Positions 29,996-37,542 of a stretch of 64,000 nucleotides of DNA are shown here, one piece after another. A program made the translations under genes and the position numbers. This DNA is from an uncultured Paracoccaceae bacterium (lineage in GTDB: Bacteria; Pseudomonadota; Alphaproteobacteria; Rhodobacterales; Rhodobacteraceae), in contig CAKZTM010000008.1 in the NCBI GenBank assembly GCA_937920555.1, positions 1 through 64,000 of the forward strand, given 5' to 3'. The notes under the pieces are model-generated. The model made no database searches and was not told the origin of the DNA. It worked only from the letters and a program-made list of their open reading frames with translations. Positions within the stretch are counted from its first letter, which is position 1. Each line of letters opens with the position of its first letter.

Positions 29996-31552
29996 CTAAA
30001 AATCCGTGGGCACGCCGCCTTCGGATTTGCGGCGGGCCACAAAGGATTGCAATTCTTCTTTGATGCCGTCGTCAATTGCGGGGGCTTCAAACTCGCCCAA
30101 GATGTCTTTCCAGACCTTGTTGGCGCGCTGGGCGGTCCATTGGCTGCCTGCTTCTTCCCAGGCCTCATAGTTGCGCCAATCGCTCAAAAACGGGGTGTAA
30201 AACGCAGTTTCGTAGCGTTCTTGTGTGTGGTCGCAGCCGAAAAAATGACCGTCCGGCCCTACGTCTTTGATGGCGTCTACCGCGAGGCTTTCGGGGGAAT
30301 AATCCACAATTGCCGGTTCAAAATAGCGCTGGAATTGCTGCAACGTCTCGCAGTCCATTATGAATTTCTCGTAGGATGCGATCAGGCCGCCCTCTAACCA
30401 GCCTGCGGCGTGATAGACCAGATTAACGCCAGAGTTCACCGCGGCCCACATGGAGTTCATGCTTTCCCACATGGCTTGCCCGTCCGGTGCGTTGGCCGCG
30501 CATGCGTTGGAGGCTCTGAGCGGGATGCCGTAGTGACGGGTCATTTGGCCAGAGATTTGTGTGGCGCGCACATATTCTGGTGTCCCGAAGGCCGGTGCGC
30601 CGGACTTCATATCCACATTGGAGGTGAACGAGCCCAAGATGCACGGACAGCCGGGATTGATGAATTGAAACAGGGCAATCGCGGCCAAGCCTTCGGCCAG
30701 AAATTGCACCACGGCACCGGGCATGGTGACCGGCGCCATCGCCCCTGCGAGGGTGAACGGGGTGACCACAACAGGTTGTCCGCGACGTGCAAAGCGCATG
30801 GCCCCGTCGAGCATCGGCCAGTCATGTTTGAGCGGTGATGAGGAGTTGATGTTGGTGTATACTCGCGGTTTGGAGAAGAATTCGTCCGCGTCCAGACCCG
30901 AGGCGATCCGTGTCATTTCCAGCACGTCCTCCACCCGCTCGGAGCCCAGCGAATAGGCGTGCACCACTTTGTCGGTGAGGGTCAGTTTGTCGTAGAGGCA
31001 ATCAAGGTGCCGAATGGAGGCATGCACGTCCACCGGTTCCACCGGGTAGCCACCGGCCACATGGATGCAATTGAAATATTGGGTGAATTTGATCAGGTCG
31101 CGGAAGCTGTCCATGTCGCCAACCCGGTGGCCCCGGTCCAGATCCATGACATTGGGCGGGGAGGAGACGTTCACAAAGCACATATGCTTGCCGCCGATGG
31201 TGATCTTGCGGTCCGGATTGCGCGGTGTGATGTCGAATTGAGACGGGGCATGGCTGATCATCTCCATCACCCAAGCGCGGTCCATTTTGACGTTCTGGTC
31301 CTCTACCTTGCAGCCTGCTTTGCGCAGGTAGTCCAGAGCCTCGTCGTTGAGAAATTCGATACCGATCTCTTCGAGCACTTCCATGGCCGCATTATGGAGC
31401 GCCTCTACCCCCTCGGGCGGGAGCGGTTCTGTGGGGGCGTCCGTGTTCACCGGTATCCGCCACGGGGTTTGCTCGATGGCCCGTTTGGCGGCGCGGCGGG
31501 CGTTGCCAGCACGGCCGCCTGACCGGCGGGTTCTGGTTGGTTTTTCGGACAC
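29996..31552 (-). CDS. MttB-like (non-pyrrolysine) trimethylamine methyltransferase family protein
   Basis: TIM-barrel methyltransferase of the MttB superfamily, 518 aa. Archaeal MttB uses pyrrolysine at an in-frame amber codon. Here the reading frame has no internal stop, so this is one of the Pyl-lacking homologues, of which glycine betaine methyltransferase (MtgB) is the best known. Family segments include PWRIPVNTDAPTEPL near the N-terminus and LVYHAAGWLEGGL in the C-terminal half. The GTG at 31552 has AGGGAG upstream; the ORF extension before it looks non-coding. No corrinoid protein lies next to it. The methyl donor is unknown, perhaps a quaternary amine. Confidence 0.88.
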   Translation of the reverse strand: MSEKPTRTRRSGGRAGNARRAAKRAIEQTPWRIPVNTDAPTEPLPPEGVEALHNAAMEVLEEIGIEFLNDEALDYLRKAGCKVEDQNVKMDRAWVMEMISHAPSQFDITPRNPDRKITIGGKHMCFVNVSSPPNVMDLDRGHRVGDMDSFRDLIKFTQYFNCIHVAGGYPVEPVDVHASIRHLDCLYDKLTLTDKVVHAYSLGSERVEDVLEMTRIASGLDADEFFSKPRVYTNINSSSPLKHDWPMLDGAMRFARRGQPVVVTPFTLAGAMAPVTMPGAVVQFLAEGLAAIALFQFINPGCPCILGSFTSNVDMKSGAPAFGTPEYVRATQISGQMTRHYGIPLRASNACAANAPDGQAMWESMNSMWAAVNSGVNLVYHAAGWLEGGLIASYEKFIMDCETLQQFQRYFEPAIVDYSPESLAVDAIKDVGPDGHFFGCDHTQERYETAFYTPFLSDWRNYEAWEEAGSQWTAQRANKVWKDILGEFEAPAIDDGIKEELQSFVARRKSEGGVPTDF

Positions 31553-31634
31553 ATGTTTCTCCCTGTTTGGGCCATCCAACGCACTGGGAGGCCGCGCGGC
31601 TGTCGGGAAAGCGACATGGTATGTCGCTATAGGT

Positions 31635-32324
31635 TCAGAGCCCCTTAGAAAGCCAATTGGGCAGCTCTTTAATTGTTGGAAGTACCACATCTGCAAATGG
31701 TGAAAGGTCGTCTTGGGTGGCGGGTCCAGTCAGCACGCCGACGGTCACCATGCCAGCGGCACGCCCGGCGATCAGATCATGGGTGGCGTCGCCGATCATG
31801 GCAACTTGGGCCGGGGCCAAGTTTTGTGCCGCGCAAAAAGCCTGCTGCATGCCCGGTTCAGGTTTGCTGCCAAACCCGCTGTCATAGCCTGCGATAAAGT
31901 GGAACAGATCGGTGATGCCTGCCGCATCGAGATGGGCGCGGGCCGGGCTTTCGGCGTCGTTGGTGGCAACTCCGAGCGTGAAGCCTTGAGTATGGAGCGC
32001 CGTCAGGAGGGGTTTGAGCGGGGTGACTTGCACTTGTTGGGCATGTTGTGCGGTGTCAGTCATCAAGGCCACAAGCTCGGCCGTGGTTCGGTCGGGCAGA
32101 TGGTGGGCCACGGCTGTTGCGATCTCATGGGGAGTGCCCGCGATAACGACGCTTTTGGGGTCAAATTTTTGGGTTTGAATGTCGAACCCAAGATTGGCCG
32201 CAAGCTGTGGTGCTTGTGCGCCTGCCAGTGTGTGGAAGAAATCTGCCGCCCACCTGCCCCATGTGGCGTTGAAGTCGAATAATGTGCCGTCCTTGTCAAA
32301 CAGGAGCCCTTTGATACTGTGCAA
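31635..32324 (-). CDS. HAD family hydrolase, phosphoglycolate-phosphatase-like
   Basis: HAD superfamily phosphatase with a helical cap, 229 aa. Motif I is LLFDKDGTLFDF (nucleophile Asp), motif II is VATNDAES, and motif IV is MIGDATHDLIAGRAAGM. The likely start is the TTG at 32324 with AAAAAGG upstream, since an ATG in a good place is lacking. The longer frame would run into the divergent thioesterase gene. The start codons of the two genes are only 31 bp apart. It may act on phosphoglycolate or another small sugar phosphate. Confidence 0.82.
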   Translation of the reverse strand: MHSIKGLLFDKDGTLFDFNATWGRWAADFFHTLAGAQAPQLAANLGFDIQTQKFDPKSVVIAGTPHEIATAVAHHLPDRTTAELVALMTDTAQHAQQVQVTPLKPLLTALHTQGFTLGVATNDAESPARAHLDAAGITDLFHFIAGYDSGFGSKPEPGMQQAFCAAQNLAPAQVAMIGDATHDLIAGRAAGMVTVGVLTGPATQDDLSPFADVVLPTIKELPNWLSKGL

Positions 32325-33157: not shown

Positions 33158-33252
33158 AATTGATAAGTCGTAAACACCTAAGAACATTGGAGATTTTTTG
33201 TACGTTTTGGGTGAAAATTGATCGTAAGGGGTGCTTGTTTGGTCCAACTCTT

Positions 33253-33336
33253 CACAAGTCACAAGTCACAAGTCACAAGTCACAAGTCACAAGTCACAAG
33301 TCACAAGTCACAAGTCACAAGTCACAAGTCACAAGT
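33253..33336. repeat. Tandem repeat, 12 perfect copies of CACAAGT
   Basis: 84 bp consisting of the heptamer CACAAGT repeated 12 times without error. It is between the 3' end of the AlgL-like gene and the ArsR promoter. Being 7 bp long and fully uniform, it is likely to change copy number by slippage. No real gene reads through it; the ORFs with TSHKSQV repeats are artefacts. Confidence 0.95.
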
Positions 33337-33396
33337 CGTGCCGGTTGCCAGGGCGATCTTACATCTGCCCGTCCGGCCGACACTTTGTGGCGAACT

Positions 33397-34527
33397 TTAG
33401 TCTGGTGTGAAGTAAATCAGCGTTGTGTGCCCACCCGCACTTCGGTTGTAAAGCGGGCGGCGGATGGCAATCACATCTTCCATATCTTGGCGCGGAAACC
33501 GCGACAAATACAGCTCGAACCACGCAAAATACTGGTCATCTTGTTGATAGGTCAGTTTTTGATCCAGAGTGGAGACATGCCTGTTGAGCACCCGCAAGTC
33601 CTCCAAAATGGCCATGTTGAACGACACAAGCGTGTGGAGCGATTTTCCATCAATGTTCAAACCAAAAAGATCGTAGCCCTGCCGTTCGGCAATCTGCGCA
33701 ATCCAAACCAAATACATCAAAGCATAGTTTTGGTAATGTGCCGCCAATTCGCCGCGCTCCATTTCCAAAGGAAGTGCCCCATCCGGCTCGGCACCTGCAA
33801 GTGCCGAATAGATCGCACTGACCCCGAACTGAAACAGCTGGTTGTCCTGGGTCAACACACCCACCATCGCCCCATATAAGGCGCGCCTGTAAAAATGGTT
33901 GTTGCAGCAGGTCCCCCGCCCCCCCGGATAGGAGGCATGCAGCCGCGCCAGCCGCTTCAGCCACGCCTCCACCACATCCAGATCGCGGTGGCGGTCTGTC
34001 ACGAAGGGGCGGACCGTACTTAAAGCCATTGCGGCGGCAAAAATCGGCGATTCAATCTGATACCATGCCTGTCTGCGCAGGTTGGTATAGTGAAAATCTT
34101 CAAACGCCTCGGCAACTGCCCATTTGTGCAACAGATCCACCAGGCAATCGGCGTGATATCTGTCCGTGGCCACCAATTGCGCAGCGGCCAGTTCGTGCAC
34201 GGCCTCCTCAAACGCCAGATAAGGCCGCGCAACTTCGCGCCAGTTTTCTTGGTCCTCGTAAAATCCGGGGATGACCGCCCGGTGATCCAAAAGCGGCAAT
34301 TGCAGCATATCCCGGCAGGACCGGCCCATCTTCAAATGGGACACCTCAACACGCATCATTTCGGAGCGCACGCCTGCCAGATACGCCCGCCGAGCGTCCA
34401 CATCGAAATACCCTGCCGTGCTGTCGGTGACCTTATAGTCGCTCAAATCAAGCGCCAGCCGCTCCTCATAGGTTAAGCCCCAAGCCGCACCGGCAAACAT
34501 CCAGAACATCACAATCAACAACCGCAT
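33397..34527 (-). CDS. algL: AlgL-like alginate/polymannuronate lyase (PL5)
   Basis: Periplasmic polysaccharide lyase that cuts mannuronate-rich polymer by beta-elimination. The 376-aa precursor has a signal peptide (MRLLIVMFWMFAGAAWG). It matches PL5/AlgL: YFDVDARRAYLAGV near the start, CCNNHFYRRA with the catalytic Asn-His, and ERGELAAHYQNYALMYLV with the catalytic Arg and Tyr. The ATG shares one base with the Alg44-like stop (TGATG). In alginate producers AlgL clears stray polymer from the periplasm, which would explain why it sits with a synthase here. Divergence from Pseudomonas AlgL leaves the exact substrate open. Confidence 0.82.
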   Translation of the reverse strand: MRLLIVMFWMFAGAAWGLTYEERLALDLSDYKVTDSTAGYFDVDARRAYLAGVRSEMMRVEVSHLKMGRSCRDMLQLPLLDHRAVIPGFYEDQENWREVARPYLAFEEAVHELAAAQLVATDRYHADCLVDLLHKWAVAEAFEDFHYTNLRRQAWYQIESPIFAAAMALSTVRPFVTDRHRDLDVVEAWLKRLARLHASYPGGRGTCCNNHFYRRALYGAMVGVLTQDNQLFQFGVSAIYSALAGAEPDGALPLEMERGELAAHYQNYALMYLVWIAQIAERQGYDLFGLNIDGKSLHTLVSFNMAILEDLRVLNRHVSTLDQKLTYQQDDQYFAWFELYLSRFPRQDMEDVIAIRRPLYNRSAGGHTTLIYFTPD

Positions 34528-35918
34528 CAATAGCCCGCAACATGTTTGAATTTTTCCATCAACGGCAGACGGTCGGTGACGAACACATCCGCAGGCACCC
34601 CGATTGTGGAGGGCGGTAGCGGCTCTTGCACCACAAATGTGACTGAGCCCAAGGAATGGTCCTTGCGCAGCCATGTGGGAAAACCGATGCGTGGCCGGGT
34701 TTGGCCGTCCAGCAATATGGTCTCAATTGTCGCAGGGATCAGCCTTTGGGTGCCTGCCAGACGCACGAAAGCCGATTGACCGTTGGTGAAATTCTTCGCG
34801 TCCTTGAGCGGGATCAGCGCCTCGACGCGCAAGTGGTCCGGTCCGGTCTTGGCCAAGGTCATCAGCGGATCGCCCTCGATCAGCCACGCGCCGTCTTCTT
34901 GCACCCAAGAGACAACGCAGTCGCACGGCGCGAATTGGCTCAGGGCGGCCAAGCGCAGCTCCAGCGCTTTCATCCGGCCGATCTCCAAGCTGATTTCGTC
35001 CTCCAACAGCTCAATGGAGGCCGCATCCGGCCCCAATGATTGCACTGCCTTGATCTGCGGCTCATCCAAAGCGGAAACGTCGCGCGGATTGATAATCAGG
35101 CCCCTCCGGTCGCGTGAGGCTTCCAAAAACGCCAGCCGGGCACGGGACAGGTCCAGATCCGCTTCGATTTTGGCGGCTCTGAGCGCAAATAGCGGATCGT
35201 CGCGCGAAACCGTGTCGCCAGCTTGTCCAACAGCCAGCTCCAACCGGCCCATACCGGGGCTTAAAATATCCACTTTGGGGGCGGTCACGGAGGCAAAGGA
35301 ACTCTCGATAATCATGTATTTGTCGTAGATAGAGATCAGCGAGACCGTCAGGATCAATGCACAAAGCACACTTGCAAAGCCTGCAATCATTCGCGGCTTC
35401 CAATTGCTGCGTACCACGACTTCCGCAGGTTTGGCCGGTGCTTTACCGGTCCCTGTGGGGTCGTCCATGGCCCGCATCACGTCATCTGCATTGGCGATTT
35501 GGCCATTGAGATAAGCGCGGATGACCCGGCGAAGTGCCTGTTCTTCGCGGGGGCTGATATCGGTGATCGCAAAGAGCAAGCGCTGGTCTGCACCTTCGCC
35601 CTCCATGCCCACAAACCCGGCGCGAATGGCCAACTCCAGCACGAAGCCGGAGAGGTTGATCCGCAGTTGGAAAGGTTGGTCGTTTAACGCGAAGGCTTTA
35701 TGATCCAGCACCACCTGATCACCGGTAATGACATCGGTGCCCTCGTGGAGCAGCTCAAACCCGCCAATGGAAAACTTGGTGCCTTGAAGCACAAAATTGT
35801 CGGACCGGGCCACAAAAGGCAGCACCACTTCCGAATAGGTCCGCCCGTCGCGCGGCTCATCGACCACACCGGGGACCATATCCCATGCTTCTGCGGTGCC
35901 TGTAACCTTGATGCTCAT
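34527..35918 (-). CDS. alg44: Alg44-like polymer secretion protein (PilZ plus HlyD-type domain)
   Basis: Inner-membrane partner of the polymannuronate synthase. The 463-aa protein has an N-terminal PilZ-like region (about 20-145), one membrane helix (MIAGFASVLCALILTVSLI, about 178-200) and a periplasmic membrane-fusion-like part with a coiled coil and barrel. This is the Alg44 plan. In Pseudomonas the PilZ domain binds c-di-GMP through RxxxR and DxSxxG. Here the second motif reads KFSIGG (Lys instead of Asp) and the first is shortened (RDGR), so binding is doubtful. It starts 1 nt after the Alg8-like stop. Confidence 0.82.
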   Translation of the reverse strand: MSIKVTGTAEAWDMVPGVVDEPRDGRTYSEVVLPFVARSDNFVLQGTKFSIGGFELLHEGTDVITGDQVVLDHKAFALNDQPFQLRINLSGFVLELAIRAGFVGMEGEGADQRLLFAITDISPREEQALRRVIRAYLNGQIANADDVMRAMDDPTGTGKAPAKPAEVVVRSNWKPRMIAGFASVLCALILTVSLISIYDKYMIIESSFASVTAPKVDILSPGMGRLELAVGQAGDTVSRDDPLFALRAAKIEADLDLSRARLAFLEASRDRRGLIINPRDVSALDEPQIKAVQSLGPDAASIELLEDEISLEIGRMKALELRLAALSQFAPCDCVVSWVQEDGAWLIEGDPLMTLAKTGPDHLRVEALIPLKDAKNFTNGQSAFVRLAGTQRLIPATIETILLDGQTRPRIGFPTWLRKDHSLGSVTFVVQEPLPPSTIGVPADVFVTDRLPLMEKFKHVAGY

Positions 35919-35919
35919 C

Positions 35920-37542
35920 TCACAAGCCCGCCCAAGTTAAGGTGCGAAATGTGAGAGCGATATCGGTGGTGTCCGGCATGGTAAACTCGCCGGAGACCAC
36001 CCCCATGACAAATGCAAACAGGACGAATGCGGTGGCATGAAGGGTAACGGTGGAGAACACCTCTAACCGGTTGATCTGTTTGGCGCCTGCCACTTTTTGG
36101 CGATTCCATCCTTGGGTGTTGAGCCGGAACGACATGTGGATTTTCAAAAGCGCGCCGTAAAACTGATTGTAATAGAGCAAAAACGGCCACAAGAAGCTGA
36201 AGCGCCGGTAAGAGGCGCCAAAAATCAGGGAAAATACCAGCCGGGTGACCGCGATCCAGACCAGGTAGAACAGCAGGTAAATCGGGCTTAGAATGAGCGC
36301 GAACATTACCGCCAGAAGTGGCCCTACCAGCGAGGTCCACATGGACAGGCGCTGATCGACCAAGGCCCACCAGGTGAAAAACCCGCAGGTTGCAGGCCCC
36401 AGTGCTATGGCGCGACCAGATGTGCGCATCATGTTGCCAAACCAGCGGATCATCAGTCCCTTAGAGGACAGGAAAAACCGATCACGGTCCGGCAGTTCTT
36501 CCAGCCCGTAAGCTTTTACATCCGGCACATAGAGCATCTTCACGCCGCGCTGCATGCAATAATACCATGTGGATTTGTCATCACCTGAGACGAATTTAAA
36601 TTTGCCGAACCGCCAATGGGTGATGTTGTCATTGTCCAACATCTCAATGAAAGCCGGGTCCGTGGCGTATTTCGTGCGGAAAATCGAATAACGCCCGGTG
36701 AGCACCAAAAGGCGTTTTGAGAGCGCCATGGAGGCCATCAGAATATGCCGCTGGGCATAGCGCAATGTGTACCATTCGCGGGTGATATGATCGCCCGACA
36801 CCACGCTGTCATTATTGGTGGTGATGGCCCCGATATCGGGCTGAGAGATGAAAAACGGGATGGTCCGGCGCAGCGCTCCGGGTTCCAGGATGATATCGCC
36901 GTCCATGAAAACAGTCACAGAATTAAGCGACGGTGCACGCCGCGAGATAACCCGAAGTGCCATGGCCATGGCCGAGCGCTTGCCGTCGCCAAGCTGGAAT
37001 TGGGTGACGATCTCTATGTTTTGAGGGGACCCGTTTTCTTCCCAAATCTGCTTCATCAAATGACGGTCCCGGTGGGAGGTGACAGAGGCCACAATGGTCG
37101 TGGGCACCCCGTAATCGAGCACGTTTTTGATCAGGGCATCATACACCGCGTGATACTCGACGGGATCAACTTTGTAAGACATTACAATGGCATAGACATG
37201 CTCCACTTTCAGGCGGGACCCGGCCTCGTCGGCATCGAAGCGCAATGTCGGGAAACGATGTTTGAGAAATACCCAGGCGCGCAGAAAATGCGTCATCATC
37301 CAAGAGTAGCGCCAAACGGCGATCATCCCCACGGTCGAGAAAAACGTGGCCGCCCGCTTTGGCGGCGAAAACTCAGCGATCAACGCAATCGCGGCAATGG
37401 TGAGGCTGAGATAAACAAACCCTAAAAACATCTCCAAACGCCATGGGCTTGGCGTCTCCTCCTGGAGCGCCTGTGGGATGAAATCCAGCTTGTCCAAGCC
37501 ACTGGGCATTGCGCCAATGAGCCTCCGTTGGTGCGACAACAT
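35920..37542 (-). CDS. alg8: Alg8-like processive glycosyltransferase (GT2)
   Basis: Membrane synthase that would polymerise GDP-mannuronate and pass the chain across the inner membrane. The 540-aa protein has two N-terminal helices, a cytosolic GT2 domain and about four or five C-terminal helices. Processive GT2 motifs are visible: VTVFMDGDIIL (DxD), MLDNDNITHW, GDDKSTWYYC and GLMIRWFGNM in place of QxxRW. These match Alg8 rather than cellulose synthase. The first ATG is 37542; a GGAGG 12 nt before the ATG at 37509 makes that start equally possible. It leads the alg8-alg44-algL cluster. Confidence 0.84.
   Translation of the reverse strand: MLSHQRRLIGAMPSGLDKLDFIPQALQEETPSPWRLEMFLGFVYLSLTIAAIALIAEFSPPKRAATFFSTVGMIAVWRYSWMMTHFLRAWVFLKHRFPTLRFDADEAGSRLKVEHVYAIVMSYKVDPVEYHAVYDALIKNVLDYGVPTTIVASVTSHRDRHLMKQIWEENGSPQNIEIVTQFQLGDGKRSAMAMALRVISRRAPSLNSVTVFMDGDIILEPGALRRTIPFFISQPDIGAITTNNDSVVSGDHITREWYTLRYAQRHILMASMALSKRLLVLTGRYSIFRTKYATDPAFIEMLDNDNITHWRFGKFKFVSGDDKSTWYYCMQRGVKMLYVPDVKAYGLEELPDRDRFFLSSKGLMIRWFGNMMRTSGRAIALGPATCGFFTWWALVDQRLSMWTSLVGPLLAVMFALILSPIYLLFYLVWIAVTRLVFSLIFGASYRRFSFLWPFLLYYNQFYGALLKIHMSFRLNTQGWNRQKVAGAKQINRLEVFSTVTLHATAFVLFAFVMGVVSGEFTMPDTTDIALTFRTLTWAGL

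Follow-up and report, generated by a model that had tools for sequence, protein, structure and literature searches.

The window, a stretch of 64,000 nucleotides from an uncultured Paracoccaceae bacterium, carries a compact cluster of three genes, for an Alg8-like synthase, an Alg44-like protein and a PL5 lyase. We give about even chances to the reading that this is an Alg8/Alg44-type synthase using UDP-glucuronic acid, with a glucuronan-like or other glucuronate-containing polymer as its predicted product. Gene linkage, phylogeny and class residues of the synthase point to this donor and this polymer.

The three-gene cluster

All three genes are intact ORFs on the minus strand. The Alg8-like gene (35920–37542) encodes a processive GT2 synthase of 540 aa, recognized by Pfam (Glyco_tranf_2_3, 7e-32). 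The Alg44-like gene (34527–35918) encodes a PilZ/membrane-fusion protein of 463 aa, recognized by a profile match, and the third gene (33397–34527) a PL5 lyase of 376 aa with a likely signal peptide, recognized by Pfam (Alginate_lyase PF05426, 1.7e-32). One base lies between the TGA of the Alg8-like gene and the ATG of the Alg44-like gene (35918), and the lyase ATG (34527) overlaps the Alg44-like TGA by one base (TGATG). The first-pass annotation had described three genes with 1-nt spacing or overlap, and this layout was recovered. Its Alg8, Alg44 and PL5 identities and their order also held, backed by Pfam and PDB matches and, for the Alg44-like protein, by a profile of its relatives. A chance cluster or mis-called ORFs were ruled out, because the identical gene order was found again in other genomes.

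The contig is 70.6 kb long and belongs to a genome of 3.19 Mb (83% complete); the cluster lies well inside the contig, so its neighbours were not cut off by a contig end. An OlsB-type acyltransferase upstream, and an ArsR-type regulator and a thioesterase downstream, had no evident link to it. Just downstream of the lyase gene, the 7-bp unit TCACAAG is repeated perfectly in tandem (12.3 copies, 33252–33337). Further on, an ORF on the minus strand resembles by eye a MttB-type trimethylamine methyltransferase (29996–31696).

No exporter, AlgK-like or precursor gene was linked to the cluster in the window. The assembled genome (83% complete) gave no AlgD, no PF13372 match for an AlgE exporter and no MBOAT, in agreement with the first-pass annotation, which had listed algD, algE and the acetylation genes as absent. 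Inspection of the ORFs listed for the window revealed no recognizable AlgG, AlgK or AlgX.

The Alg8-like protein has the DGD (214–216), GDDK (320–323) and RWFGN (366–370) motifs, corresponding to the DxD, DDK and RW motifs of Alg8-type GT2 enzymes. It gave no match in a sequence search of solved structures, either as a single sequence or as a profile. The solved structure nearest to its predicted fold was hyaluronan synthase, a fold-level likeness at 12–16% identity that is expected for most processive GT2 enzymes. Hyaluronan synthase is a UDP-GlcA/UDP-GlcNAc enzyme, sharing the proposed donor; unlike the window's synthase, it has no Alg44 partner.

Relatives, class residues and linked dehydrogenases

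An Alg8 relative was found in 40 of the 298 genomes surveyed in the same family, and the window synthase was 32–41% identical to those found there. Searching the class with the Alg44-like protein as query gave three strong matches, in genomes G533 (locus L084), G312 (L083) and G673 (L082). The synthase as query of a phylum-wide search gave four at 48–49% identity: one in G954 (L130), from the same family as the window, and three in gammaproteobacteria of one family (L129, L131 and L132). The last three were assigned to the gammaproteobacteria because they do not belong to the class of the window and the search listed them next to Pseudomonas-type alginate operons. All seven loci have the synthase, the Alg44-like protein and PL5 together. 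The order of the bare triad is common to G533, G954 and the window; just upstream of it there was the end of a beta-barrel-like ORF in G533, at the contig start, and GalU in G954. A search for further triads covered 397 Rhodobacteraceae genomes, each from a different genus, and gave weak matches only. G954 came to light only through the phylum search, in which another species of its genus had been sampled.

Maximum-likelihood analysis of 58 synthases put the 33 AlgD-linked ones in one clade and the window synthase in another, nearest to L084, L130 and L083, and then to the three UGD-linked gammaproteobacterial loci. A careful tree of 47 synthases supported the AlgD clade at 95/96 and the side with the window, L082, L083, L084, L087, L129–L133 and L140 at 97/95, while the exact eight-member clade including L082 was supported at 90/53 only.

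Five Alg8 positions in the alignment separated the AlgD-linked from the window-side synthases. Position 244 was E in 33/33 AlgD-linked synthases, and also in 11 further outgroup synthases, several adjoining AlgA or AlgD genes; it was N in 8/8 members of the window clade and in 4/4 two-gene relatives. At position 280, T (33/33 AlgD-linked) stood against V or C in the window clade and the two-gene relatives. The other differences, AlgD-linked residues given first, were at positions 155 (V vs T, S or A), 183 (I or A vs Q) and 285 (M or L vs Y, F or C in the window clade). With Asn244, Val280 and Gln183, the window synthase shows the residues that mark the UGD-linked clade. Position 244 is 28 residues past the DGD motif and position 280 just ahead of the LTGR motif, and judging from the sequence both residues may line the donor site. 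Position 244 offers a simple test of donor selection by the synthase.

On the window side of the tree, the linked dehydrogenase was a UDP-glucose dehydrogenase (UGD) at five loci and AlgD at none. The gammaproteobacterial loci L129, L131 and L132 had the order UGD-Alg8-Alg44-PL14-PL5-Sel1, with UGD at algD's usual place before the synthase, and L082 had Alg8-Alg44-UGD-PL14-PL5-Sel1. These four clusters share the synthase clade and the class residues with the window; unlike it, they have a linked UGD, a linked PL14, a linked AlgK-like Sel1 protein and a PilZ motif that is mostly intact. We know of no published description of them. At locus L009 of genome G222 (L175:6872–12470), whose synthase also has N244 and groups within the larger N244 assemblage, Alg44-Alg8 was followed by a Wza-like export lipoprotein ORF (by eye) and then, still close downstream, by an E. 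coli-type UGD. This UGD differs in kind from those in L082, L129, L131 and L132, and the locus may represent a swap of export route in another lineage.

Comparison with solved structures typed the linked dehydrogenases. The one in L132 scored 547 bits with UGD 2y0e and 196 with the Pseudomonas aeruginosa GDP-mannose dehydrogenase. The one in the alginate operon L048 scored 440 bits with the P. aeruginosa enzyme and ~234 at best with UGDs. This typing ruled out a reading as alginate from homology alone.

A genome-wide family search of the seven closest relatives found UGD in all of them and AlgD in none, and in G533 and G954 the UGD was the sole enzyme of that family. As a positive control, the same search recovered the AlgD type in G307 (L123). 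UGD is widespread in bacteria, so that finding it somewhere in the genome of a relative is of little significance; weight comes only from its linkage and from the absence of AlgD. The first-pass annotation had suggested a short, unmodified polymannuronate or another uronan, and had looked to phylogeny for a decision. As far as mannuronate is concerned, phylogeny went largely against it: the synthase falls outside all 33 AlgD-linked ones, and its relatives are UGD-linked and have no AlgD genome-wide. Another uronan was a good guess.

In the window's own 83% complete assembly, UGD was neither linked to the cluster nor found elsewhere. It may lie in the unassembled part, but the failure to find it is where the case for UDP-glucuronate is weakest. 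The only nucleotide-sugar dehydrogenases found there were two of the TviB type (UDP-HexNAc; L059:14055–15428 and L060:10592–11872), neither of them near the cluster. An ORF considered as a UDP-glucuronate epimerase (L059:10274–11338) was dropped, as NCBIfam gave no confirmation.

The lyase and the Alg44-like protein

The lyase starts with a signal-peptide-like stretch and matched the alginate lyase A1-III (1hv6, 3.9e-45). It retains the catalytic residues N209/N210-H211, R258 and Y265, as befits a member of the PL5 family. Its identity was 40–50% to the PL5 of close relatives, including 45–46% to those of the UGD-linked clusters (L129, L131, L132 and L082), vs 17–27% to the lyases of canonical operons. 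A point against glucuronate is that A1-III, its best match among characterized PL5 enzymes, is recorded as specific for mannuronate (PMC9655155). The PL5 enzyme Smlt1473 cuts poly-beta-D-glucuronate at pH 7, mannuronate at pH 9 and also hyaluronan (PMC8511899), and a PL5 lyase is therefore no proof of alginate. The gammaproteobacterial clusters and L082 also have a linked PL14 protein, and in the solved structure of the PL14 member vAL-1, D-glucuronate was bound (PMC3764139). By analogy with these enzymes, the linkage of PL5 and PL14 is compatible with a glucuronate polymer. In the PL5 of G312 (L083:10878–12089), CCNHR replaces CCNNH at the catalytic site, and this enzyme may be altered or inactive.

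The Alg44-like protein comprises an N-terminal PilZ-like region, a predicted helix at ~174–200 (likely transmembrane) and a periplasmic membrane-fusion part. It had no Pfam match, PilZ included, and its structure model was of low confidence (mean pLDDT 57). A profile built from it and seven relatives matched the Alg44 PilZ structure 4xrn (2.1e-13) and also reached membrane-fusion proteins; the profile includes canonical Alg44s, and the 4xrn match thus says more about the kinship of the family than about the window protein by itself.

A working PilZ domain, as implied by the first-pass annotation, was not borne out, the c-di-GMP-binding residues being replaced. The motif is degenerate, with R26-T-Y-S-E30 for RxxxR and K48-F-S-I-G-G53 for DxSxxG; in the alignment, E30 stands in place of R21 and K48 in place of the Asp of DxSxxG. 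The same residues were lost in L084 and L130. Both motifs were kept in L083, L131, L132 and L082, and L129 kept DxSxxG with the first Arg changed to G. The PilZ loss shared by the window, L084 and L130 therefore maps to one branch, that of the bare triads. The canonical Rhodobacterales Alg44 of L048 had no PilZ match either, so PilZ decay may have happened more than once. The window genome encodes six GGDEF proteins; judged from these genes, c-di-GMP is probably present in the organism and need not act on this synthase. The PilZ loss points to the three-gene form as an alginate-type synthase that may be active in the absence of c-di-GMP.

Predicted product and comparison with known systems

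We infer the following roles for the three proteins in the window's organism. The Alg8-like protein would polymerize and extrude a chain from UDP-glucuronic acid, not GDP-mannuronic acid. The Alg44-like protein would assist it as co-polymerase and as adaptor in the periplasm, where the PL5 lyase, like AlgL, would remove or shorten the chain. The predicted product is a glucuronan-like poly-beta-1,4-glucuronate or some other polymer containing glucuronate. In the three-gene form the PilZ c-di-GMP switch would have decayed, with control probably exerted through expression or precursor supply.

The cluster has much in common with the Alg8-Alg44-AlgL genes of alginate producers (Pseudomonas, Azotobacter and the Rhodobacterales loci L048, L090 and L091): a homologous synthase, a PilZ/membrane-fusion partner and a PL5 lyase are clustered in both, and the GT motifs DGD, GDDK and RWxGN are shared. 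Unlike these systems, the window has no AlgD or AlgE in the assembled genome and no linked AlgA, its synthase belongs to a separate clade with Asn244, its PL5 is only 17–27% identical to theirs and its PilZ motif is degenerate. An alginate (polymannuronate) synthase after all, with AlgD, AlgA and the exporter unassembled or in unrelated loci, appears quite unlikely to us. It would agree with the homology of all three proteins to alginate proteins, with a polyM lyase as the best match of PL5 and with the missing 17% of the genome; it is at odds with the position of the synthase outside the AlgD-linked clade, the replacement of E244 by N, the lack of AlgD in the genomes of the seven relatives and of AlgD and AlgE in the assembled part.

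A polymer of another UDP-uronate or of two alternating sugars, for example GlcNAcA supplied by the two TviB-type dehydrogenases or a hyaluronan-like GlcA/GlcNAc chain, is unlikely but within reason. The TviB-type enzymes are the only nucleotide-sugar dehydrogenases found in the window genome, hyaluronan synthase is the nearest solved fold, and Smlt1473, a PL5 enzyme, cleaves hyaluronan (PMC8511899). Yet neither TviB-type gene is near the cluster, the linked enzyme of the relatives is UGD and not TviB, and G533 and G954 have UGD only. The loss of the PilZ motif, the unlinked precursor and export genes and the failure to find UGD in the assembled genome would suit a decaying remnant of a larger cluster that has lost polymer production. 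We consider such a remnant very unlikely: the three ORFs are intact and tightly overlapping, every catalytic motif is retained, and two other genera (G533 and G954) have retained the triad together with this PilZ loss, with PL5 at only 44–50% identity, a divergence that a pseudogene would not survive.

For the preferred reading, a synthase fed by UDP-glucuronic acid, the nearest known product is bacterial glucuronan (Sinorhizobium meliloti M5N1CS, Peteryoungia rosettiformans), which matches the predicted polymer type and for which a lyase is suspected too. The genes for its biosynthesis were stated to be unknown in 2023 (PMC10180729). No glucuronan synthase was named in the literature searched, most subscription journals being outside its reach. 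We tentatively propose, as a possibility short of an even chance, that the loci described here form the gene cluster so far missing for bacterial glucuronan. They would encode a sister family of the alginate synthases in alpha- and gammaproteobacteria that polymerizes UDP-glucuronic acid, and the window would have a stripped form released from control by c-di-GMP. Annotation would label members of this clade as alginate synthases or simply as glycosyltransferases. Should UDP-GlcA be the donor, many of the "alginate" predictions in these organisms would be wrong, and the loci would offer concrete candidates for the glucuronan genes.

Another small system is the mixed-linkage beta-glucan synthase BgsA/BgsB of Sinorhizobium, in which BgsB is the membrane-fusion partner. 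It likewise has a GT2 synthase (PMC5567048), and differs from the window's system in being related to cellulose synthase.

The first-pass annotation had called the cluster unexpected for this type of organism; complete AlgD-linked clusters proved common in Rhodobacterales. Zongyanglinia (L048) had AlgD-Alg8-Alg44-AlgA-AlgG-unknown-AlgX-Sel1-PL5, and alginate-type operons were also found on Tateyamaria and Loktanella plasmids, in Microvirga and in a Caulobacteraceae genome. Two smaller arrangements were observed: a five-gene locus in Caulobacteraceae (L039:4671–11939), AlgD-Alg8-Alg44-(TPR and outer-membrane barrel in one protein)-PL5, and a two-gene Alg8-Alg44 pair in the 1.8 Mb genome G307 (L085:6755–9911), with flagellar genes directly after it (FliL/FliM-like by eye).
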